DNA of 64,000 nt. Origin: Pseudomonadota bacterium. Its GTDB lineage: Bacteria > Pseudomonadota > Gammaproteobacteria > Burkholderiales > JAJZQI01. The DNA lies in the NCBI GenBank assembly GCA_021851875.1, contig JAJZQI010000013.1, forward strand, positions 1 to 64,000. Reading direction: 5' to 3'. Under the pieces are notes generated by a model. The model did no database searches. It worked only from the letters and a program-made list of their open reading frames with translations, and had not been told where the DNA came from. Positions 24,994-46,959 of this stretch are shown one piece after another. The position numbers were made by a program, and so were the translations under genes. Numbering within the stretch: the stretch's first letter is position 1; every line of letters begins with the position of its first letter.

Positions 24994-25030
24994 CGGCAAA
25001 CAGTGAAAGACCAAATCCAAAATCCATCCT

Positions 25031-25089
25031 CCTGGCCCAACGAGGCCAGGGTCTCCCCGCCCACCGGGCGGGGACGGAAGGGGTGGGGA
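25031..25089 (+). repeat. dispersed double-hairpin repeat (copy 1)
   Basis: Hairpin 1 is CCTGGCC/GGCCAGG with loop CAACGA (25031-25050). Hairpin 2 is a 9-bp stem TCCCCGCCC/GGGCGGGGA with loop ACC (25054-25074), followed by CGGAAGGGGTGGGGA. Partial copies occur at 42334 (second half) and 45040 (hairpin 1 plus ACGGAAGGGGTG). The rest of 24994-25180 shows no gene. Confidence 0.7.
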
Positions 25090-25180
25090 TATTTGTTTGG
25101 GCTGAGATGCTCAAGGAATGTTGAGGGCCGGGCTCTGCCCGGTCTTGCCGGTCGCAGCTTTCAGCTGACCCCAGCCCAAG

Positions 25181-39619: not shown

Positions 39620-42304
39620 ATGCAAACCTTGTTGTTGGTGGATGGTTCTTCTTACCTGTACCGCGCTTATCACGCCTTGCCGGATCTGCGTAACCACGCC
39701 AACGAGCCGACCGGGGCCATCTATGGCGTGCTCAACATGCTGCGCCGACTTGCCAAAGACCACACTGCAGATTATAGCGCGTGCGTGTTCGACGCAAAAG
39801 GTAAAACCTTCCGCGACGACTGGTATCCGGAATACAAGGCCCACCGTCCGCCCATGCCGGACGACCTTTCCTGCCAAATCGCCCCCCTGCACGAGGCCAT
39901 TCGCGCCATGGGCTGGCCGCTGCTGATGGTGGAGGGCGTGGAAGCCGACGACGTGATCGGCACGCTGGCGCGCCGGGCGGCCGAACAGGGCTGGCACACC
40001 ATCATTTCCACCGGCGACAAGGACCTGGCGCAGCTGGTGAACGACAGGGTCAAGCTGGTCAACACCATGACCAACGAGACGCTCGATATTCCCGGCGTGA
40101 AAAACAAGTTCGGCGTGCCGCCGGAAGGCATTGTCGATTACCTGACGCTGATCGGCGACGCGGTCGACAATGTGCCGGGGGTGGAAAAATGCGGTCCGAA
40201 AACAGCGCTGAAGTGGCTGGAAGCCTATGGCACGCTGGACAACCTGATCGCCCACGCAGATGAAATCAGCGGCAAGGTCGGCGAAAACCTGCGCGCCGCG
40301 CTCGACTGGCTGCCGCAGGGGCGCCGCTTGATCACGGTGAAGACCGATGTGGCCGATCTGCCGCCGCTCGACGATCTGAAATTTACCCAGATAGACAGAC
40401 CCCATCTGGCCGAGTTTTTCAATCACTACGACTTCAAGACCTGGCGCGAGGAATTGGGCGAGGTTGCCGGCGCGGCCGCGCCGGCCGCACCCACGCCAGA
40501 ACGGCATTACCACCAGATCACCCGCATGGCCGAACTGGACACTTGGGTGGAAAAACTCAAATCAGCCGGCGCATTCGTGTTTGACACCGAAACCACCAGC
40601 CTGGACGAGATGCAGGCGCGGCTGGTCGGCCTGTCCTTTGCCATCGAACCGCACGAAGCCATTTATATTCCGCTTAACCACCGTTACCCGGGCGCGCCGG
40701 AGCAGCTCGACCAAGACGCGGTGCTGGCGAAGCTGGCGCCACTGTTCGCCGACCCAACCATCAAGAAAATCGGCCAGAACCTCAAGTACGACCTGCATGT
40801 GCTGGCCAACCACGGCATCACGGTCAACGGTCTGGGACACGATACCCTGCTGGAATCCTACGTGCTGGAATCGCACAAGACGCACGACATGGACAGTCTG
40901 GCGGCTCGCCATCTGGGCGTGAAGACCATCACCTACGAGGAAATCGCCGGCAAGGGCGCGCAGCAGATCGGTTTCGATCAGGTGGATGTGGACACGGCCA
41001 CCACCTATTCGGCGGAAGACTCCGACATCACCCTTCAATTACATCAAGCCCTGTGGCCGCAAATCGAGCAGGACGAGGCGTTGAAGCGCGTCTACAGCAC
41101 CATCGAACTGCCGCTGGTGCCGGTGCTGCTGGCCATCGAACGGCAGGGCGTGCTGCTGGATACCGCCGTTTTGGCGAAACAGAGCCAGGCATTGGGCGAG
41201 CGCCTGTTGCAACTGGAGCAGGAGGCTTATGAACTGGCCGGCCAGCCGTTCAACCTCAATTCGCCCAAGCAGATCCAGGAAATTTTATTTGAACGGCAGG
41301 GCCTGCCGGTGATCAAGAAGACCCCCGGCGGCGCGCCGTCCACCGACGAGGAGGTACTGCAGCAGCTGGCGCTGGATTATCCGCTGCCGAAAGTGCTGCT
41401 GGAGTCGCGCAGCCTGTCCAAGCTCAAGTCCACCTATACCGACAAACTGCCGCGCATGGTCAATCCCGCCACGGGCCGGGTGCACACGCGTTTTTCCCAG
41501 GCGGTAGCGGTCACCGGCCGGCTGTCCAGTTCCGATCCGAATTTGCAGAACATTCCCGTGCGCACGGTGGAAGGCCGCCGTATTCGCGAGGCCTTCATTG
41601 CGCCGCCGGGCTGGCAGCTGGTGTCGGCGGATTATTCGCAGATCGAGCTGCGCATCATGGCGCACATTTCCGGCGACGCCAATCTGATCCGCGCCTTTGC
41701 CGCGGGCGAGGACGTGCACCGTGCCACGGCGGCGGAAATTTTCAGCGTCACCCCGCTGGAAGTGGATGCCGAGCAGCGCCGCGTCGCCAAAGTGATCAAT
41801 TTCGGCCTCATCTACGGCATGAGCGCCTTCGGCCTGGTGCGTGAACTGGGCATTACCCGCGCTGCCGCGCAGCAGTACATCGACCGCTATTTCGAGCGCT
41901 ATCCCGGCGTGGCCGCCTACATGCAGCGCACCCGCGAGGAAGCGAAAACGCGCGGCTACGTGGAAACGGTATTCGGCCGCCGCCTGTGGCTGCCGGACAT
42001 TGTCGGCAAAAACGGCGCCAAGCGTCAGGCCGCCGAGCGCGCCGCCATCAACGCCCCCATGCAGGGCACGGCCGCCGACCTGATCAAACTGTCGATGATT
42101 GCCGTGCAGAACTGGCTGGAAAAGTCGGGCATGCAGACCCGCCTGGTGCTGCAGGTGCATGATGAACTGGTGCTGGAAGCGCCACAGAGCGAATTGGCAA
42201 CGGTGATGAAGGAAGTGCCCCGTCTTATGGCGGGTGTGGCGCAGTTGCAGGTGCCGTTGCTGGCGGAAATCGGTAGCGGCAACAACTGGGGCGAGGCGCA
42301 TTAG
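39620..42304 (+). CDS. polA: DNA polymerase I
   Basis: An 894-residue three-domain enzyme for Okazaki fragment processing and repair. The 5' nuclease domain (about 1-290) begins QTLLLVDGSSYLYRAYHALP and has EGVEADDVIGTLA and STGDKDLAQLV. The 3'-5' exonuclease (about 310-490) keeps its catalytic acids (FVFDTETTSLDEM), so proofreading is likely active. The polymerase domain (about 520-894) has motif A VSADYSQIELRIMAHISGD, the finger helix RRVAKVINFGLIYGMSAFGL and motif C LQVHDELVLEAP. It diverges from the LOG gene with a 10-base gap. Confidence 0.97.
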   Translation: MQTLLLVDGSSYLYRAYHALPDLRNHANEPTGAIYGVLNMLRRLAKDHTADYSACVFDAKGKTFRDDWYPEYKAHRPPMPDDLSCQIAPLHEAIRAMGWPLLMVEGVEADDVIGTLARRAAEQGWHTIISTGDKDLAQLVNDRVKLVNTMTNETLDIPGVKNKFGVPPEGIVDYLTLIGDAVDNVPGVEKCGPKTALKWLEAYGTLDNLIAHADEISGKVGENLRAALDWLPQGRRLITVKTDVADLPPLDDLKFTQIDRPHLAEFFNHYDFKTWREELGEVAGAAAPAAPTPERHYHQITRMAELDTWVEKLKSAGAFVFDTETTSLDEMQARLVGLSFAIEPHEAIYIPLNHRYPGAPEQLDQDAVLAKLAPLFADPTIKKIGQNLKYDLHVLANHGITVNGLGHDTLLESYVLESHKTHDMDSLAARHLGVKTITYEEIAGKGAQQIGFDQVDVDTATTYSAEDSDITLQLHQALWPQIEQDEALKRVYSTIELPLVPVLLAIERQGVLLDTAVLAKQSQALGERLLQLEQEAYELAGQPFNLNSPKQIQEILFERQGLPVIKKTPGGAPSTDEEVLQQLALDYPLPKVLLESRSLSKLKSTYTDKLPRMVNPATGRVHTRFSQAVAVTGRLSSSDPNLQNIPVRTVEGRRIREAFIAPPGWQLVSADYSQIELRIMAHISGDANLIRAFAAGEDVHRATAAEIFSVTPLEVDAEQRRVAKVINFGLIYGMSAFGLVRELGITRAAAQQYIDRYFERYPGVAAYMQRTREEAKTRGYVETVFGRRLWLPDIVGKNGAKRQAAERAAINAPMQGTAADLIKLSMIAVQNWLEKSGMQTRLVLQVHDELVLEAPQSELATVMKEVPRLMAGVAQLQVPLLAEIGSGNNWGEAH

Positions 42305-42333: not shown

Positions 42334-42457
42334 TCCCCACTCCTTCCGTTCCCGCCCGGTGCCGAGGCGCTTGAAGTAGTGGGCCTATACACCCGGGTTC
42401 AATTCGTGCAATCAAGCACTTCTAAAGTGCGAATCTTTAGAAATTTGCGTGATTGCA
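42334..42457. repeat. repeat fragment plus long hairpin in the polA convergent gap
   Basis: 42334-42361 is the reverse complement of the second half of the 25031 repeat with two mismatches over 28 bases. After it, TGCAATCA (42407) pairs with TGATTGCA (42450) and TTCTAAAG (42420) with CTTTAGAA (42435), forming a two-part 51-base hairpin. It separates polA from the oppositely oriented accessory operon and could stop transcription from both sides. Confidence 0.65.
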
Positions 42458-42494: not shown

Positions 42495-43343
42495 TTACTT
42501 CCCGGACAGAATCATGTTCTGTCCGCAGGCCAATTCAAACTGGTCCTCGCCCTCATCGTTATCCGCTGAGCTCAGATGATTCAATCGCCACAAATCGTAA
42601 GTAAGCATGTCTTCGATTGAAAAATGGGCTCCGGAAACGGCCGCGCAGGAGATCAAATAAACCGGTGGCTGACCGATTTCCTGCCCAAAGGCGGTTACGA
42701 GTATGTCCCTCAATTGCTGGGCAATCGCCCCCGCTTCGTCTTGCATGCAAGATTGTGTGTCGTACACCAGAACAACGGACACTTCGAATGGTACATCGGG
42801 TGTTTCATTGCCCTCAATCTTAAGGAACAACCCAGTGTATTTTTGCTGAACTGGCTCAAACAGCTCGGATATGACTTTTTCGGGTGTTTTCTCAGTATCT
42901 GCAAAATACGTTTGGCTCAGGTAAGCTTCAATTTCATTGGCAAATGCAGGCCGGCCGTACCGCGCCGAGAGCCATTGCTTCAGGAATCGTTTTTCTTGTG
43001 GATTGGATAGGCGATCGAAAACATTTGCCGGATCGGTCACATCCAGATTGGATTTATCCAATACAATTCGCTTGGAAAACTTGAGCTCCAGTACAAGCCC
43101 GTTAGGGTAGGTGCAGTGCAGCTTACGCACATGGTTGGCCCGTCCGAATGTCGGGTTGTAGGTGGCCTTCTTCGCGACGATCACATCAATATGGGGTTCT
43201 GTACCAGGATCCAAATTTGGTAGATCGCAGTCGTGTGTAATGACGACTAGGTACTCTTTTGAACGAAGGCTAATTCCGAGTGCTTGGGCGGCCGCAGGGG
43301 ACAGAATGTCCCCCTGCATTAATGCGCACGCTCGCTGCTCCAT
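42495..43343 (-). CDS. hypothetical protein with QGDIL and HDCDL motifs
   Basis: A 282-residue soluble protein not assignable to a characterised family. It begins with MQGDILSPAAAQALGI, then EYLVVITHDCDLPNLDPGTEPHIDVIVAKK; the QGD...HDCDL combination (residues about 9-42) suggests a conserved small domain with possible Cys/His/Asp chemistry or metal binding. The rest mixes beta segments with a helical middle (EKRFLKQWLSARYGRPAFANEIEAYL). GAGGG lies 6 bases before the ATG. It is the last gene of a three-gene minus-strand operon, 17 bases after the HTH gene, in locally AT-rich DNA, which suggests acquisition. A role in defence or genome conflict is possible but not shown. Confidence 0.6.
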   Translation of the reverse strand: MEQRACALMQGDILSPAAAQALGISLRSKEYLVVITHDCDLPNLDPGTEPHIDVIVAKKATYNPTFGRANHVRKLHCTYPNGLVLELKFSKRIVLDKSNLDVTDPANVFDRLSNPQEKRFLKQWLSARYGRPAFANEIEAYLSQTYFADTEKTPEKVISELFEPVQQKYTGLFLKIEGNETPDVPFEVSVVLVYDTQSCMQDEAGAIAQQLRDILVTAFGQEIGQPPVYLISCAAVSGAHFSIEDMLTYDLWRLNHLSSADNDEGEDQFELACGQNMILSGK

Positions 43344-43360
43344 TTGCCACCCTCATGATG

Positions 43361-44008
43361 TCACTCGGATAGTGTAGCAGGAATAGTCAGCGTTGACAGC
43401 GCATTGCCTCCAGTATGCAATCTCCGTCCTTCAGATGCCGATGCAAGCATTTGATGGTGCGCTGCATCAGCCTTACGGGCCTCATCAATAAGTCGCGTGA
43501 TATCGGTTTCAGACAGCATATGGCTGGCAAATCGTTCGAGGAGACTCGCTGGCCCTTCTGAAAAAGCACGCATTTTGAGTAGTGCCCCCGGATTGTCTAG
43601 TCCGGCTGACTGGATTTGTTCTGCAATGTTCGCAAAATCAGCCAGTCTCATCCGGTTATCTCCTTCAGGTTCAGAACCACCCATCCAGTTGTAGATGGCC
43701 TGACGGCTTACGCCGAAAAGCGTTCCCATATCAATCGTGGATGGACGAAACACAGACCGCACCAAGTCAAGATCCTGTTGTGCGGTTCGACTGGGTTTTA
43801 CCGGAACATTCAGATAGCTTGTGTCGTTTGCTGCGACATAAGCCGAGCCAGGAGCAGGCACTACGTAGATCGGGTGCGCCTGCCCCGCACCGGGATAACC
43901 CGTTCCCAATCCGGCAGCCACTCCGGCGGCCATGGTGGCCGCCAGCAATGCCTGCGTATGCTTGGATGAAAATTGTCCGGTTGAAGTTTGTGCATGTCTC
44001 TCGATCAT
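43361..44008 (-). CDS. HTH protein with N-terminal hydrophobic segment
   Basis: A 215-residue protein. Residues about 18-40 (TQALLAATMAAGVAAGLGTGYPGA) form an Ala/Gly-rich hydrophobic stretch that could be a membrane anchor. A Pro-rich linker follows. Residues about 80-135 hold a helix-turn-helix: DLVRSVFRPSTIDMGTLFGVSRQAIYNWMGGSEPEGDNRMRLADFANIAEQI, similar to the HTH of Xre/MbcA-type antitoxin-like proteins. The C-terminus (LSETDITRLIDEARKADAAHHQM) is helical. The ATG at 44008 overlaps the TIGR04255-like stop (ATGA), so the two are coupled; a GTG four codons upstream is possible. It may regulate its own operon. Confidence 0.65.
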   Translation of the reverse strand: MIERHAQTSTGQFSSKHTQALLAATMAAGVAAGLGTGYPGAGQAHPIYVVPAPGSAYVAANDTSYLNVPVKPSRTAQQDLDLVRSVFRPSTIDMGTLFGVSRQAIYNWMGGSEPEGDNRMRLADFANIAEQIQSAGLDNPGALLKMRAFSEGPASLLERFASHMLSETDITRLIDEARKADAAHHQMLASASEGRRLHTGGNALSTLTIPATLSE

Positions 44009-44811
44009 TTTACACCCCACAGCTGATGCGTTTTCTCTGACACCATATCAAGTAGCATGGTCTTGGTTTGTGCATGCATAGCTTCCATTTGCCGCCGGAT
44101 TTCAGGAAGATCCAGTGGTGAAGCTCCGAACGAAAAATGATCAATATCAAGCAGCATGTATTCTGGCAAGGTCGTGCCTGAATAGGCCGGATTGATATCA
44201 AGCCCCCAAGGGGAAATATCCGCAGGGAATGAAATTGCCCCCGTCACTTTTGACGTCTTTGCCCGCATTGTTTTAATCGCAAAATACGGACTGCCGCTGT
44301 TGTAATCGAATATATGTTCTGTCACCGCTTGTCTAACGGCGAATCCGCTATTGATGCCGCGTAAACCTTCAGCCAGGTAGGACGACAATGTCTCGCCTTC
44401 CTCGGGAAGAAGAACATTTACATAACGCAAACCTATGCGCGTTATGATTCTCGGGTCAACAATTCTATTTACAACTTCCATGCCATCAAACAAGTTATCA
44501 AAAAGCCATTCATGGCCTTCATATATGGAAGCGTGAAATGAAAGCGCAGATTGTGCCAGAACGTAGCCAGACCCTTTTTGTGGATCCGAATAGATCCACA
44601 AAGGGATGTTCTGGATTTCCGACTTCTGCTGCTGAGTGATTTGATCCTGAATGACGCTGATATGCTGCAGCGCGGTTTTCTCGCTCAATGGAAACTTTTT
44701 GCGTAACACGTCCTGAATTTCAGGAGCATACTTTTCCATTGCTTCAATGCTGCCAAATTGCACTTGTGCAATCACGTGCAGCAAAGGTGGCCGATCCCAC
44801 TTGGTGGTCAC
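44005..44811 (-). CDS. TIGR04255-like family protein
   Basis: A 268-residue soluble protein with the pattern of the sporadically distributed TIGR04255 family: PPLLHVIAQVQFGSIEAMEKYAPEIQDVLRKKFP at the N-terminus, IPLWIYSDPQKGSGYVLAQSALSFHASIYEGHEWLFDNLFDGM in the middle, and TRIGLRYVNVLLPEEGE. Function of the family is unknown; its patchy distribution suits accessory DNA. The GTG at 44811 is supported by GGAGG 6 bases upstream. It heads a three-gene operon with the HTH protein (4-base overlap) and the QGDIL/HDCDL protein. Confidence 0.7.
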   Translation of the reverse strand: MTTKWDRPPLLHVIAQVQFGSIEAMEKYAPEIQDVLRKKFPLSEKTALQHISVIQDQITQQQKSEIQNIPLWIYSDPQKGSGYVLAQSALSFHASIYEGHEWLFDNLFDGMEVVNRIVDPRIITRIGLRYVNVLLPEEGETLSSYLAEGLRGINSGFAVRQAVTEHIFDYNSGSPYFAIKTMRAKTSKVTGAISFPADISPWGLDINPAYSGTTLPEYMLLDIDHFSFGASPLDLPEIRRQMEAMHAQTKTMLLDMVSEKTHQLWGVK

Positions 44812-44844
44812 GTTACCCTCCGTAGTCCTGGCATGTTTTTATAG

Positions 44845-44875
44845 TACACCCATGAGGTAAAGATACACCCATGAG
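44845..44875 (-). promoter_or_regulatory. direct repeats upstream of the accessory operon
   Basis: TACACCCATGAG occurs twice with a 19-base period (44845-44856 and 44864-44875), 34-64 bases upstream of the operon's first start. Direct repeats near the start of an operon that encodes an HTH protein are a likely operator. The stretch 44812-45039 is otherwise AT-rich (long T runs at 44987-45013) with one GC island (44933-44955); I see no gene in it. Confidence 0.4.
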
Positions 44876-45039
44876 TTACAAGTTTACATTTGACTTTACA
44901 TCATTACAAGGGGAGGTTGTAGGCAGCCTAACTGACCCCCCTCGGGGCCAGGCCTCACATTTTACATTCGCATATTTAATGCATTGATTTTTTATAATTA
45001 TTTTTTCTTTTTTCGGTGTAAATTGTGATCCTCAATGTA

Positions 45040-45072
45040 CACCCCTTCCGTCCCCGGCCTCGTTGGGCCGGG
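45040..45072 (-). repeat. dispersed hairpin repeat (copy 3), possible pyk terminator
   Basis: On the minus strand the stem is CCCGGCC/GGCCGGG with loop CAACGA, followed by GGACGGAAGGGGTG. The copy at 25031 has CCTGGCC/GGCCAGG with the same loop, so one base pair changed on both sides and pairing was kept. It lies 36 bases downstream of the pyruvate kinase stop. Confidence 0.65.
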
Positions 45073-45108: not shown

Positions 45109-46959
45109 TTATTCCGCTTCGCTGAGGGCGGTGCTGGCCACCGACAGTTTGCGCAGGGTGGCGCGCCGCTTGAAGTAATGCGATTCCATGCGGCCGATGA
45201 TGCCGGCGAGGAAGCGCACGGTTTCGACGATGTGCGGGCCCTTGTTGAGCATGGCGCATTCGGCGCGGATGCTCATGGCGGCGTCGCTGACTTCGGCGCG
45301 CGAGGGGGCGCCTTTTTTCGCCATGCCTTCGAGAATCTGGGTGGCCCAGATGACCGGCACGTGGGCGGCTTCGCACAGCCAGAGAATTTCTTCCTGCACC
45401 TCCGACAGCCGGTCAAATCCCATCTCCACCGCCAGATCCCCGCGCGCCACCATGACGCCGAAGGGCGGGTACTGCATGCTGCTGAAGAGGATGTGGGGCA
45501 GTTGCTGGAAAGCCTGGCGGTTTTCGATTTTCAGTATCATGCCGGTTTCCGCCTGGCCCTGTTGTCGCAGGAATTCGTGCAGTTCTTCGATGTCTTTTGA
45601 GTTGCGCAGAAATGACAGGGCGACCAGATCGATGTGTGGCAGCAGCAGGGACAGGTCACTCTTGTCCTTGTCGGTCAGGGCGGGCAGATGGAACACCGTA
45701 TCGGGAAAATTGATGCCTTTTTCCGCTTTCAGCTTGGAGCCATCCGCTGCGGCATGGGTGATGCGCACCTGCATGGTATCGTTCGTACAGTTCTGAATCA
45801 CGCCGCCGATCTTGCCGTCGTCCAGCCAGACACGCTGACCGGCGGTGACCTGTTCAAATGCGCTGGCAAGGCTGCAGTGGATGTGGGCTGGTTCCACAAC
45901 CGTGCCGTCCGGCGCCAGCGCGGCATTTTCGCCGGCAATGTCCGCGCGCGTGAGCACCAGTGTGTCGCCCGTGTTGAGCACGATGGGCAGGATAATGTCA
46001 GGCACTTCGCCGACATTGCCGCGCAAGATCAGCGTATGACGGCGCCAGAGAGAAACGGGTGTGTGCGGTTCGATATAGGTTGTCCGGCTGGTCTCGGCCA
46101 GCCAGGACTGGCCATGCCGGCTGAGCATGACCAGCTCGATTTCATCGGCCCGTGTGTCGCTCAGCAGCAGGCGGTCGCCTTCCTGCGCATGGGCCAGCAA
46201 TTGCGCGCTTATCGGCAGGGTGAATTGATGTTTGTCCGGCGCCGGTTCGGCTGCATCCAGCGGGGTCAGCCATACCTGGGCGGGAGCGATGACCTGGCCG
46301 AAGACGTTTCTCCGCGGTTTGATTTTCAGTACCCGGCCGCTCGATGCCAGCGAACCGGTGCGCAGTTTCGGTCCGGCCAGGTCGGCCTGCACCAGGCAGG
46401 GACGACCGGTTTCCTGTATGGCCGTTTGCAGATTGCTGATCATGGCCAGCCAGTCGGCCGGGGTGTCGTGGGCGCAATTGATGCGCATGATGTCCATGCC
46501 GCTTTTGAGCAGGTCGCGCAGCAGGTGCGGGTTATTGGCCCCTTCCGGCGGCATGGTGACCATGATGCGCACCTGTCGTTGTTCGGGTTGCACGCCAAGC
46601 AAGCGGTCGGCGTTGCTTTTCAGCAGCTGATGGCCCTCGCCGCGCGTGACCGGCGGCTCGGCTACATCCGGCACTGCCTGGCCGGTCAGGTGCGCCACGG
46701 CGAAAATGACCGTGTTGAGCTTGTCCAGCACATGCGGCTCCAGCACGCCCAGGGATGACAGGCCGAGGGCCGACAGTTCCTGCTGAACGGAACGGATGTC
46801 GTGCTGCCGCAGACTCAGGTAGTGCAGCAGGTTGCGTGCACTGGCCTGCTGCGAGGCGGGCAGGGCTTGCCACAATGACAGGTGCTGTTGTTCCATCAGC
46901 TGCGCTTGCTGGCGCAGCTGCAGCAATTGCTGCATGAGCCGTTTCGGTTTGGCGGACAT
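45109..46959 (-). CDS. pyruvate kinase-like protein, atypical, with N-terminal extension
   Basis: A 616-residue protein. Residues 1-125 form a helical extension without pyruvate kinase similarity. From about 128 a pyruvate kinase barrel follows: VRIMVTMPPEGANNPHLLRDLLKSGMDIMRINCAHD (canonical RLNFSHG is altered), VQADLAGPKLRTG, ILKIENRQAFQQLPHIL, and VMVARGDLAVEMGFDRLSEVQEEILWLC...ATQILEGMAKKGAPSRAEVSDAA. The C-terminal allosteric domain of standard enzymes is missing. The ATG at 46959 is chosen because further upstream codons are unconserved; its ribosome site is weak. It may be a divergent PEP-to-pyruvate enzyme or a regulatory homologue. Confidence 0.8.
   Translation of the reverse strand: MSAKPKRLMQQLLQLRQQAQLMEQQHLSLWQALPASQQASARNLLHYLSLRQHDIRSVQQELSALGLSSLGVLEPHVLDKLNTVIFAVAHLTGQAVPDVAEPPVTRGEGHQLLKSNADRLLGVQPEQRQVRIMVTMPPEGANNPHLLRDLLKSGMDIMRINCAHDTPADWLAMISNLQTAIQETGRPCLVQADLAGPKLRTGSLASSGRVLKIKPRRNVFGQVIAPAQVWLTPLDAAEPAPDKHQFTLPISAQLLAHAQEGDRLLLSDTRADEIELVMLSRHGQSWLAETSRTTYIEPHTPVSLWRRHTLILRGNVGEVPDIILPIVLNTGDTLVLTRADIAGENAALAPDGTVVEPAHIHCSLASAFEQVTAGQRVWLDDGKIGGVIQNCTNDTMQVRITHAAADGSKLKAEKGINFPDTVFHLPALTDKDKSDLSLLLPHIDLVALSFLRNSKDIEELHEFLRQQGQAETGMILKIENRQAFQQLPHILFSSMQYPPFGVMVARGDLAVEMGFDRLSEVQEEILWLCEAAHVPVIWATQILEGMAKKGAPSRAEVSDAAMSIRAECAMLNKGPHIVETVRFLAGIIGRMESHYFKRRATLRKLSVASTALSEAE

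Follow-up and report, generated by a model that had tools for sequence, protein, structure and literature searches.

A mobile three-gene operon headed by a TIGR04255 protein in a Burkholderiales bacterium: occurrence, predicted folds and a possible toxin-type function

P2-like prophages have an experimentally supported anti-phage hotspot between gpA and gpQ, which is occupied by systems such as old-tin, Rst_3HP, DUF4238 and DprA-PRTase (Rousset et al., PMC9122126). CmdTAC, a toxin-antitoxin-chaperone (TAC) system, also acts against phages: a phage capsid protein competes for its chaperone, and loss of the antitoxin follows (PMC11618068). Type II toxins of the MazF/Kid/CcdB kind (PemK_toxin, PF02452) are carried in small operons with a DNA-binding partner. 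Here we describe a three-gene operon which shares features with each of these. It is located at positions 42495-44811 of a stretch of 64,000 nucleotides (hereafter the window; contig JAJZQI010000013.1, positions 1 to 64,000, assembly GCA_021851875.1) from a bacterium of the Burkholderiales, and its genes, named A, B and C in the order of transcription, code for a TIGR04255 family protein, a helix-turn-helix (HTH) protein and a protein with a QGD...HDCDL motif. We lean, with moderate confidence, towards the view that this is one form of a modular and mobile TIGR04255-headed cassette of toxin type, carried for phage defence, in which C would be the effector, B the regulator or antitoxin and A a chaperone or sensor.

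Anatomy, occurrence and mobility of the operon

The listing of open reading frames (ORFs) of the window contains three co-directional minus-strand ORFs between 42495 and 44811. Gene A (44005-44811) codes for 268 amino acids (aa) from a GTG start with GGAGGG upstream, gene B (43361-44008) for about 215 aa counted from the ATG of its overlap with A, and gene C (42495-43343) for 282 aa. As A and B share an ATGA, within GTAAAATGATCG, B most likely starts at 44008 rather than at the GTG at 44020, to judge from the sequence. The spacing between B and C is 17 bases (43344-43360), and G+C content falls to 0.45-0.54 across 42500-45000 against about 0.58-0.65 in the adjoining kilobases. The tight coupling of three genes in AT-richer DNA, noticed in an original prediction made from the letters of the window, is therefore a real property of the locus.

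The operon is sporadic, since, with a profile of C, matches were obtained in only 5 of 100 relatives and, across the class, in 12 of 369 genomes. Collection scans yielded 80 genome loci and 41 viral-contig loci; for these a closer five-row alignment was used, the 19-row alignment being too diverse for scanning, and single-sequence scans for related loci gave no matches. A, B and C occur together in 134 of the 141 loci that were scored, a set which is partly redundant and in which one contig may come from two collections; as one of these (L078) is truly a contig-end case, the count is better given as about 133. The remaining loci are mostly contig ends or decayed copies, and one copy (L034) is visibly decayed by stop codons. 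The original prediction was to be abandoned if the three families never occurred together elsewhere; what was found is the same A-B-C order in nearly every locus.

Hosts of the operon belong to the Beta-, Gamma- and Alphaproteobacteria, to the Deinococcota and, by the labels of metagenome-assembled genomes, to other phyla. A tblastn search with C matched five plasmid records, from Robbsia, Pseudomonas (two records), Klebsiella and Meiothermus, and TIGR04255, a middle gene and C stand in the same order on all five. Among 5426 E. coli genomes, 19 have a match to the operon, always on the chromosome, and in the three E. coli regions that were read it lies between gpA and gpQ of P2-like prophages, flanked by a DinI-like gene behind the replication endonuclease and by the portal gene. 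The P2 portal gene is found directly behind C in 29 of the 141 loci. The hotspot location holds for these orthologues; the copy in the window lies on the chromosome with polA and pyk as its neighbours. A, B and C thus form an obligate and mobile unit which is often borne by prophages, and its accessory nature, proposed at the outset, is confirmed by the sporadic occurrence, by the prophage and plasmid locations and by an empty site in a congener (see below).

The P2-like prophage of E. coli JML285 that carries the operon also codes for a SNIPE-associated domain protein beside the repressor (L161:343-2019), possibly a second defence gene at another spot.

Predicted folds and conserved features of the three proteins

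C was modelled with AlphaFold2 from a 71-row alignment at a predicted local distance difference test (pLDDT) score of 84. For residues 5-132 of the predicted model, the top Foldseek matches are nearly all MazF/CcdB proteins with a probability of about 1.0, and VIA gave a Z of 9.4 over 102 of 105 residues at 3.4 A with a list made up uniformly of MazF, CcdB and Kid. The structure prediction that had been suggested as a check of the HDCDL protein thus points to a MazF/Kid/CcdB fold for this part of C, followed beyond residue 132 by an extra alpha/beta C-terminal part of about 150 residues.

Seven residues of C (C39, D40, E49, W124, R128, Y129 and R131) do not vary across a set of 19 diverse homologues, which bears out the impression of a conserved QGDIL...HDCDL core. 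Within the HDCDL motif, the C-D pair is invariant in an unbiased alignment (A4) and the H and first D are variable; the HDCD frequency of a further alignment (A8) reflects a bias from the pattern used in the search. In searches by sequence, no Pfam family, PF02452 included, matched C with an E of 1 or below, and no family was found in Pfam, NCBIfam, PHROG, PADLOC or PDB. Against a viral structure library, C had only weak matches, one of them to a PemK-like protein, and none that was firm. Short relatives of C with a QGD-SNTCD motif gave a weak in-register match to PemK (24.7 versus 9-13 for controls) at low probability.

The HTH of B lies near residues 95-125 of the longer frame and has a conserved GVSRQAIYNW-type core according to a homology profile; sequence searches of Pfam, NCBIfam, PHROG, PADLOC and PDB gave no more than weak HTH matches, those in PDB among them. 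Just upstream of A, two direct minus-strand copies of TACACCCATGAG stand 19 bases apart at 44845 and 44864 (span 44845-44875). They are the sole two occurrences within the window and make a plausible candidate operator for B. The N-terminal part of B is variable; in most homologues it contains a hydrophobic stretch and, after this, a G[TS]G motif, and hydrophobic N-terminal stretches are found in several other cassette middle genes as well. In a 19-residue Kyte-Doolittle scan this segment of the window copy peaks at 1.36, and many homologues have no convincing transmembrane helix. Membrane anchoring was rejected as a general feature of B on these grounds, and the earlier suggestion of a membrane-anchored HTH protein is doubtful for the window copy.

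A is a clear member of the TIGR04255 'sporadic' protein family, an NCBIfam model which it matches over its full length (E 4.6e-33, 115.1 bits, curated cut-off 30) and which covers one protein only. The AlphaFold2 model (pLDDT 94) has a duplicated alpha+beta arrangement. Its fold matches, among them TBP and AdoMetDC, are weak (VIA Z 7-9) and give no firm fold assignment.

TIGR04255-headed cassettes with exchangeable third genes

TIGR04255 was found in 34 of 339 genomes of the class, 30 of 398 genomes of the phylum and none of 14 control genomes. Reading of 56 further TIGR04255 loci, mostly without a C of the window type, revealed that in most of them TIGR04255 opens a tight run of three genes in which A is followed by a short middle gene and a third gene. 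The third gene is C-like in about 15 of the 56 loci, in long and short forms, and the short QGD-SNTCD forms are homologous to C with a probability of 92% (hhalign). A canonical PemK_toxin gene (Pfam E 1.1e-18) takes the third place in one cassette (L254:494-1848, G625:C94), where the run consists of TIGR04255, a 95-aa gene and the PemK/MazF toxin gene and is followed by a large methyltransferase-like gene. PIN domain proteins take it in two others (L231:4063-5595 and L243:3277-4746). Three third genes were labelled HEPN-like and five NlpC-like, by eye and with one weak PADLOC match rather than by Pfam, and the others belong to larger families of unknown fold. The commonest cassette (L235, L241, L259, L278, L284 and similar) has a conserved pair in the second and third places: the middle gene shows a WDGYGA-type motif, and the third gene codes for about 150 aa, contains an LSV motif and has no Pfam match.

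The families of the middle and third genes co-vary, with an adjusted Rand index of 0.61 against at most 0.19 in 2000 shuffles, a value which related loci inflate somewhat, and A is common to all cassettes. This is the pattern expected of an effector, its matched partner and a general component. Our literature search found neither TIGR04255 by name nor its three-gene cassette with an exchangeable third gene. We consider it an even chance that TIGR04255 marks an unrecognised superfamily of modular immune or toxin-type cassettes, present in about 7-10% of the genomes sampled in class and phylum, in which a chaperone- or sensor-like core is joined by a partner that fits the effector and by an interchangeable third gene from the divergent MazF-fold, PemK, PIN, HEPN-like or several unknown families. 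Each of the components, a MazF fold, an HTH and prophage cargo, is of a kind already known. If this is right, an orphan family name becomes a handle for a class of modular toxin-type or antiviral cassettes, and several effector families of unknown fold come to light in the third slot. The operon would also provide a divergent MazF-fold protein with a testable target, copies of which are already present in P2-like prophages of E. coli.

In such a cassette, C would be the effector, combining a MazF/CcdB-fold domain with a conserved set of its own (C-D, E, E, R, Y, R) and a second domain. Free C would be toxic, with RNA or a core protein of the cell as its probable target. B would be the cognate partner which keeps C inactive, and it would repress the operon by binding of its HTH to the TACACCCATGAG repeats. 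A, present in all cassettes, has the probable role of stabilising B or presenting it, and B may dock through its hydrophobic-GTG N-terminal segment. Release of C would follow when a phage product or another stress upsets the association of A and B, and growth and phage production would stop. The original prediction had seen a regulator-sensor-effector layout of a defence or toxin-antitoxin-like system. An effector at the third position agrees with the predicted fold of C and with PemK and PIN proteins in the same slot; the regulator and sensor remain proposed roles.

The operon resembles CmdTAC (PMC11618068) in its three-gene layout, which could consist of a toxin, a stabilising protein and a partner that exposes a hydrophobic segment, and likewise occurs as an accessory element of E. 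coli. It differs in that A is not recognisably SecB, the toxin families are not the same and the hydrophobic segment is N-terminal in B, and the roles set side by side here are putative ones for A, B and C. To the MazF/Kid/CcdB toxins it is linked by the predicted fold of residues 5-132 of C, by the small operon with a putative DNA-binding partner and by the canonical PemK in the equivalent slot of the L254 cassette. Unlike these toxins, C has no significant sequence match to the family, has apparently different catalytic positions and carries an extra domain of about 150 residues; in addition, it is the third of three genes and TIGR04255 is always present. With the P2 hotspot systems (PMC9122126), the E. 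coli orthologues share the exact gpA-gpQ position, and it is this location that argues for the defence role originally proposed. In contrast to those systems, the operon has no PADLOC match for A or C and is also common outside prophages.

Several observations weigh against a chaperone-assisted toxin cassette for phage defence. The alignment of C with PemK is not significant (hhalign), and the positions of the catalytic Arg and Thr of MazF, located by strand register only, appear not to be conserved in C; as other residues are invariant, any activity of C would use another site. In the fold matches listed for A, SecB does not appear. The N-terminal segment of B is transmembrane-like in some homologues and not in many others, and the G[TS]G motif is missing from some. 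None of the PADLOC models matches A or C, and most TIGR04255 cassettes have third genes of unknown fold, so that a toxin slot is not proved for all of them.

The same toxin-type parts could instead form an addiction or stabilisation module, selected to retain a prophage, plasmid or island and not to stop phages. The carriage of the operon by prophages and plasmids would suit such a module, as would the partition genes which P2 hotspots additionally carry (PMC9122126). However, many tested anti-phage systems occupy this hotspot position (PMC9122126), and chromosomal copies like that of the window are placed between housekeeping genes, where no element that they might stabilise is seen. We regard this explanation as unlikely.

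Still less probable is an operon for lysogenic conversion or regulation, in which A (as a TBP-like protein) and B would be regulators and C a non-toxic MazF-fold binder of nucleic acids acting on prophage or host expression. B does have an HTH, the repeat upstream of A resembles an operator, TBP is among the full-length fold matches of A, and the catalytic positions of MazF seem to be lost in C. But the A-B-C unit also occurs well beyond prophages, the presence of PIN and PemK genes in the third slot suggests an effector, and the resemblance of A to TBP is weak (Z ~7).

The three-gene anti-P1 system of Rousset et al. is presumably the one called Rst_3HP or 3HP in detection programs. 3HP is detected by PADLOC, with PADLOC-DB 2.0.0 as the version used (PMC10855318). 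That the operon is this published system of P2-like phages is very improbable: both lie in the same hotspot, have three genes without clear domains and are mostly prophage-borne (PMC9122126, PMC9090908), but a search of PADLOC-DB 2.0.0 with the A and C orthologues from E. coli prophages, which allowed E values of up to 10 and had no 3HP positive control, gave no matching model, and identity was rejected on these models, the operon most likely being different.

Insertion site, dispersed repeats and neighbouring genes

The window copy is bounded on the left by the gene for DNA polymerase I (polA, 39620-42304, plus strand) and on the right by a pyruvate kinase-like gene (pyk, 45109-46950, minus strand), both named from their ORF sequences. 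In the one congener that was compared, the two genes adjoin, polA with an identity of 95% and the pyk-like gene with one of 89%, and the gap of about 105 bases between them contains a hairpin of the same repeat type as found around the operon and represents the empty site. The operon is therefore either an insertion at this repeat-bearing intergenic site or has been lost from it in a lineage-specific manner. No integrase or transposase gene was seen in the operon block.

As originally noted, copies of a dispersed repeat, CCTTCCGTNCCCGNCC, lie on both flanks of the operon on the plus strand, one between polA and the operon (42342-42357) and one between the operon and pyk (45044-45059). With a third at 25066, three copies were found in the window against 0.02 expected by chance, and further copies occur on another contig of the same genome and in the sister genome. 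The three copies (25066-25081, 42342-42357 and 45044-45059) belong to GTCCCCACCCCTTCCGTCCCCGCCC with a hairpin, which is an element of this genus similar to repetitive extragenic palindromic sequences. The hairpins also predicted on the flanks are indeed foldable on both sides, but terminator-like sites are about as numerous as expected by chance. One of the three repeat copies, on the minus strand, falls within 25026-25122, a stretch annotated as tRNA-Gly, and casts doubt on that call.

Finally, the same genome carries a canonical PemK-like toxin gene about 8 kb past the end of the window (G000:C40:72361-72678) and a broken PemK-like toxin gene on contig 22.
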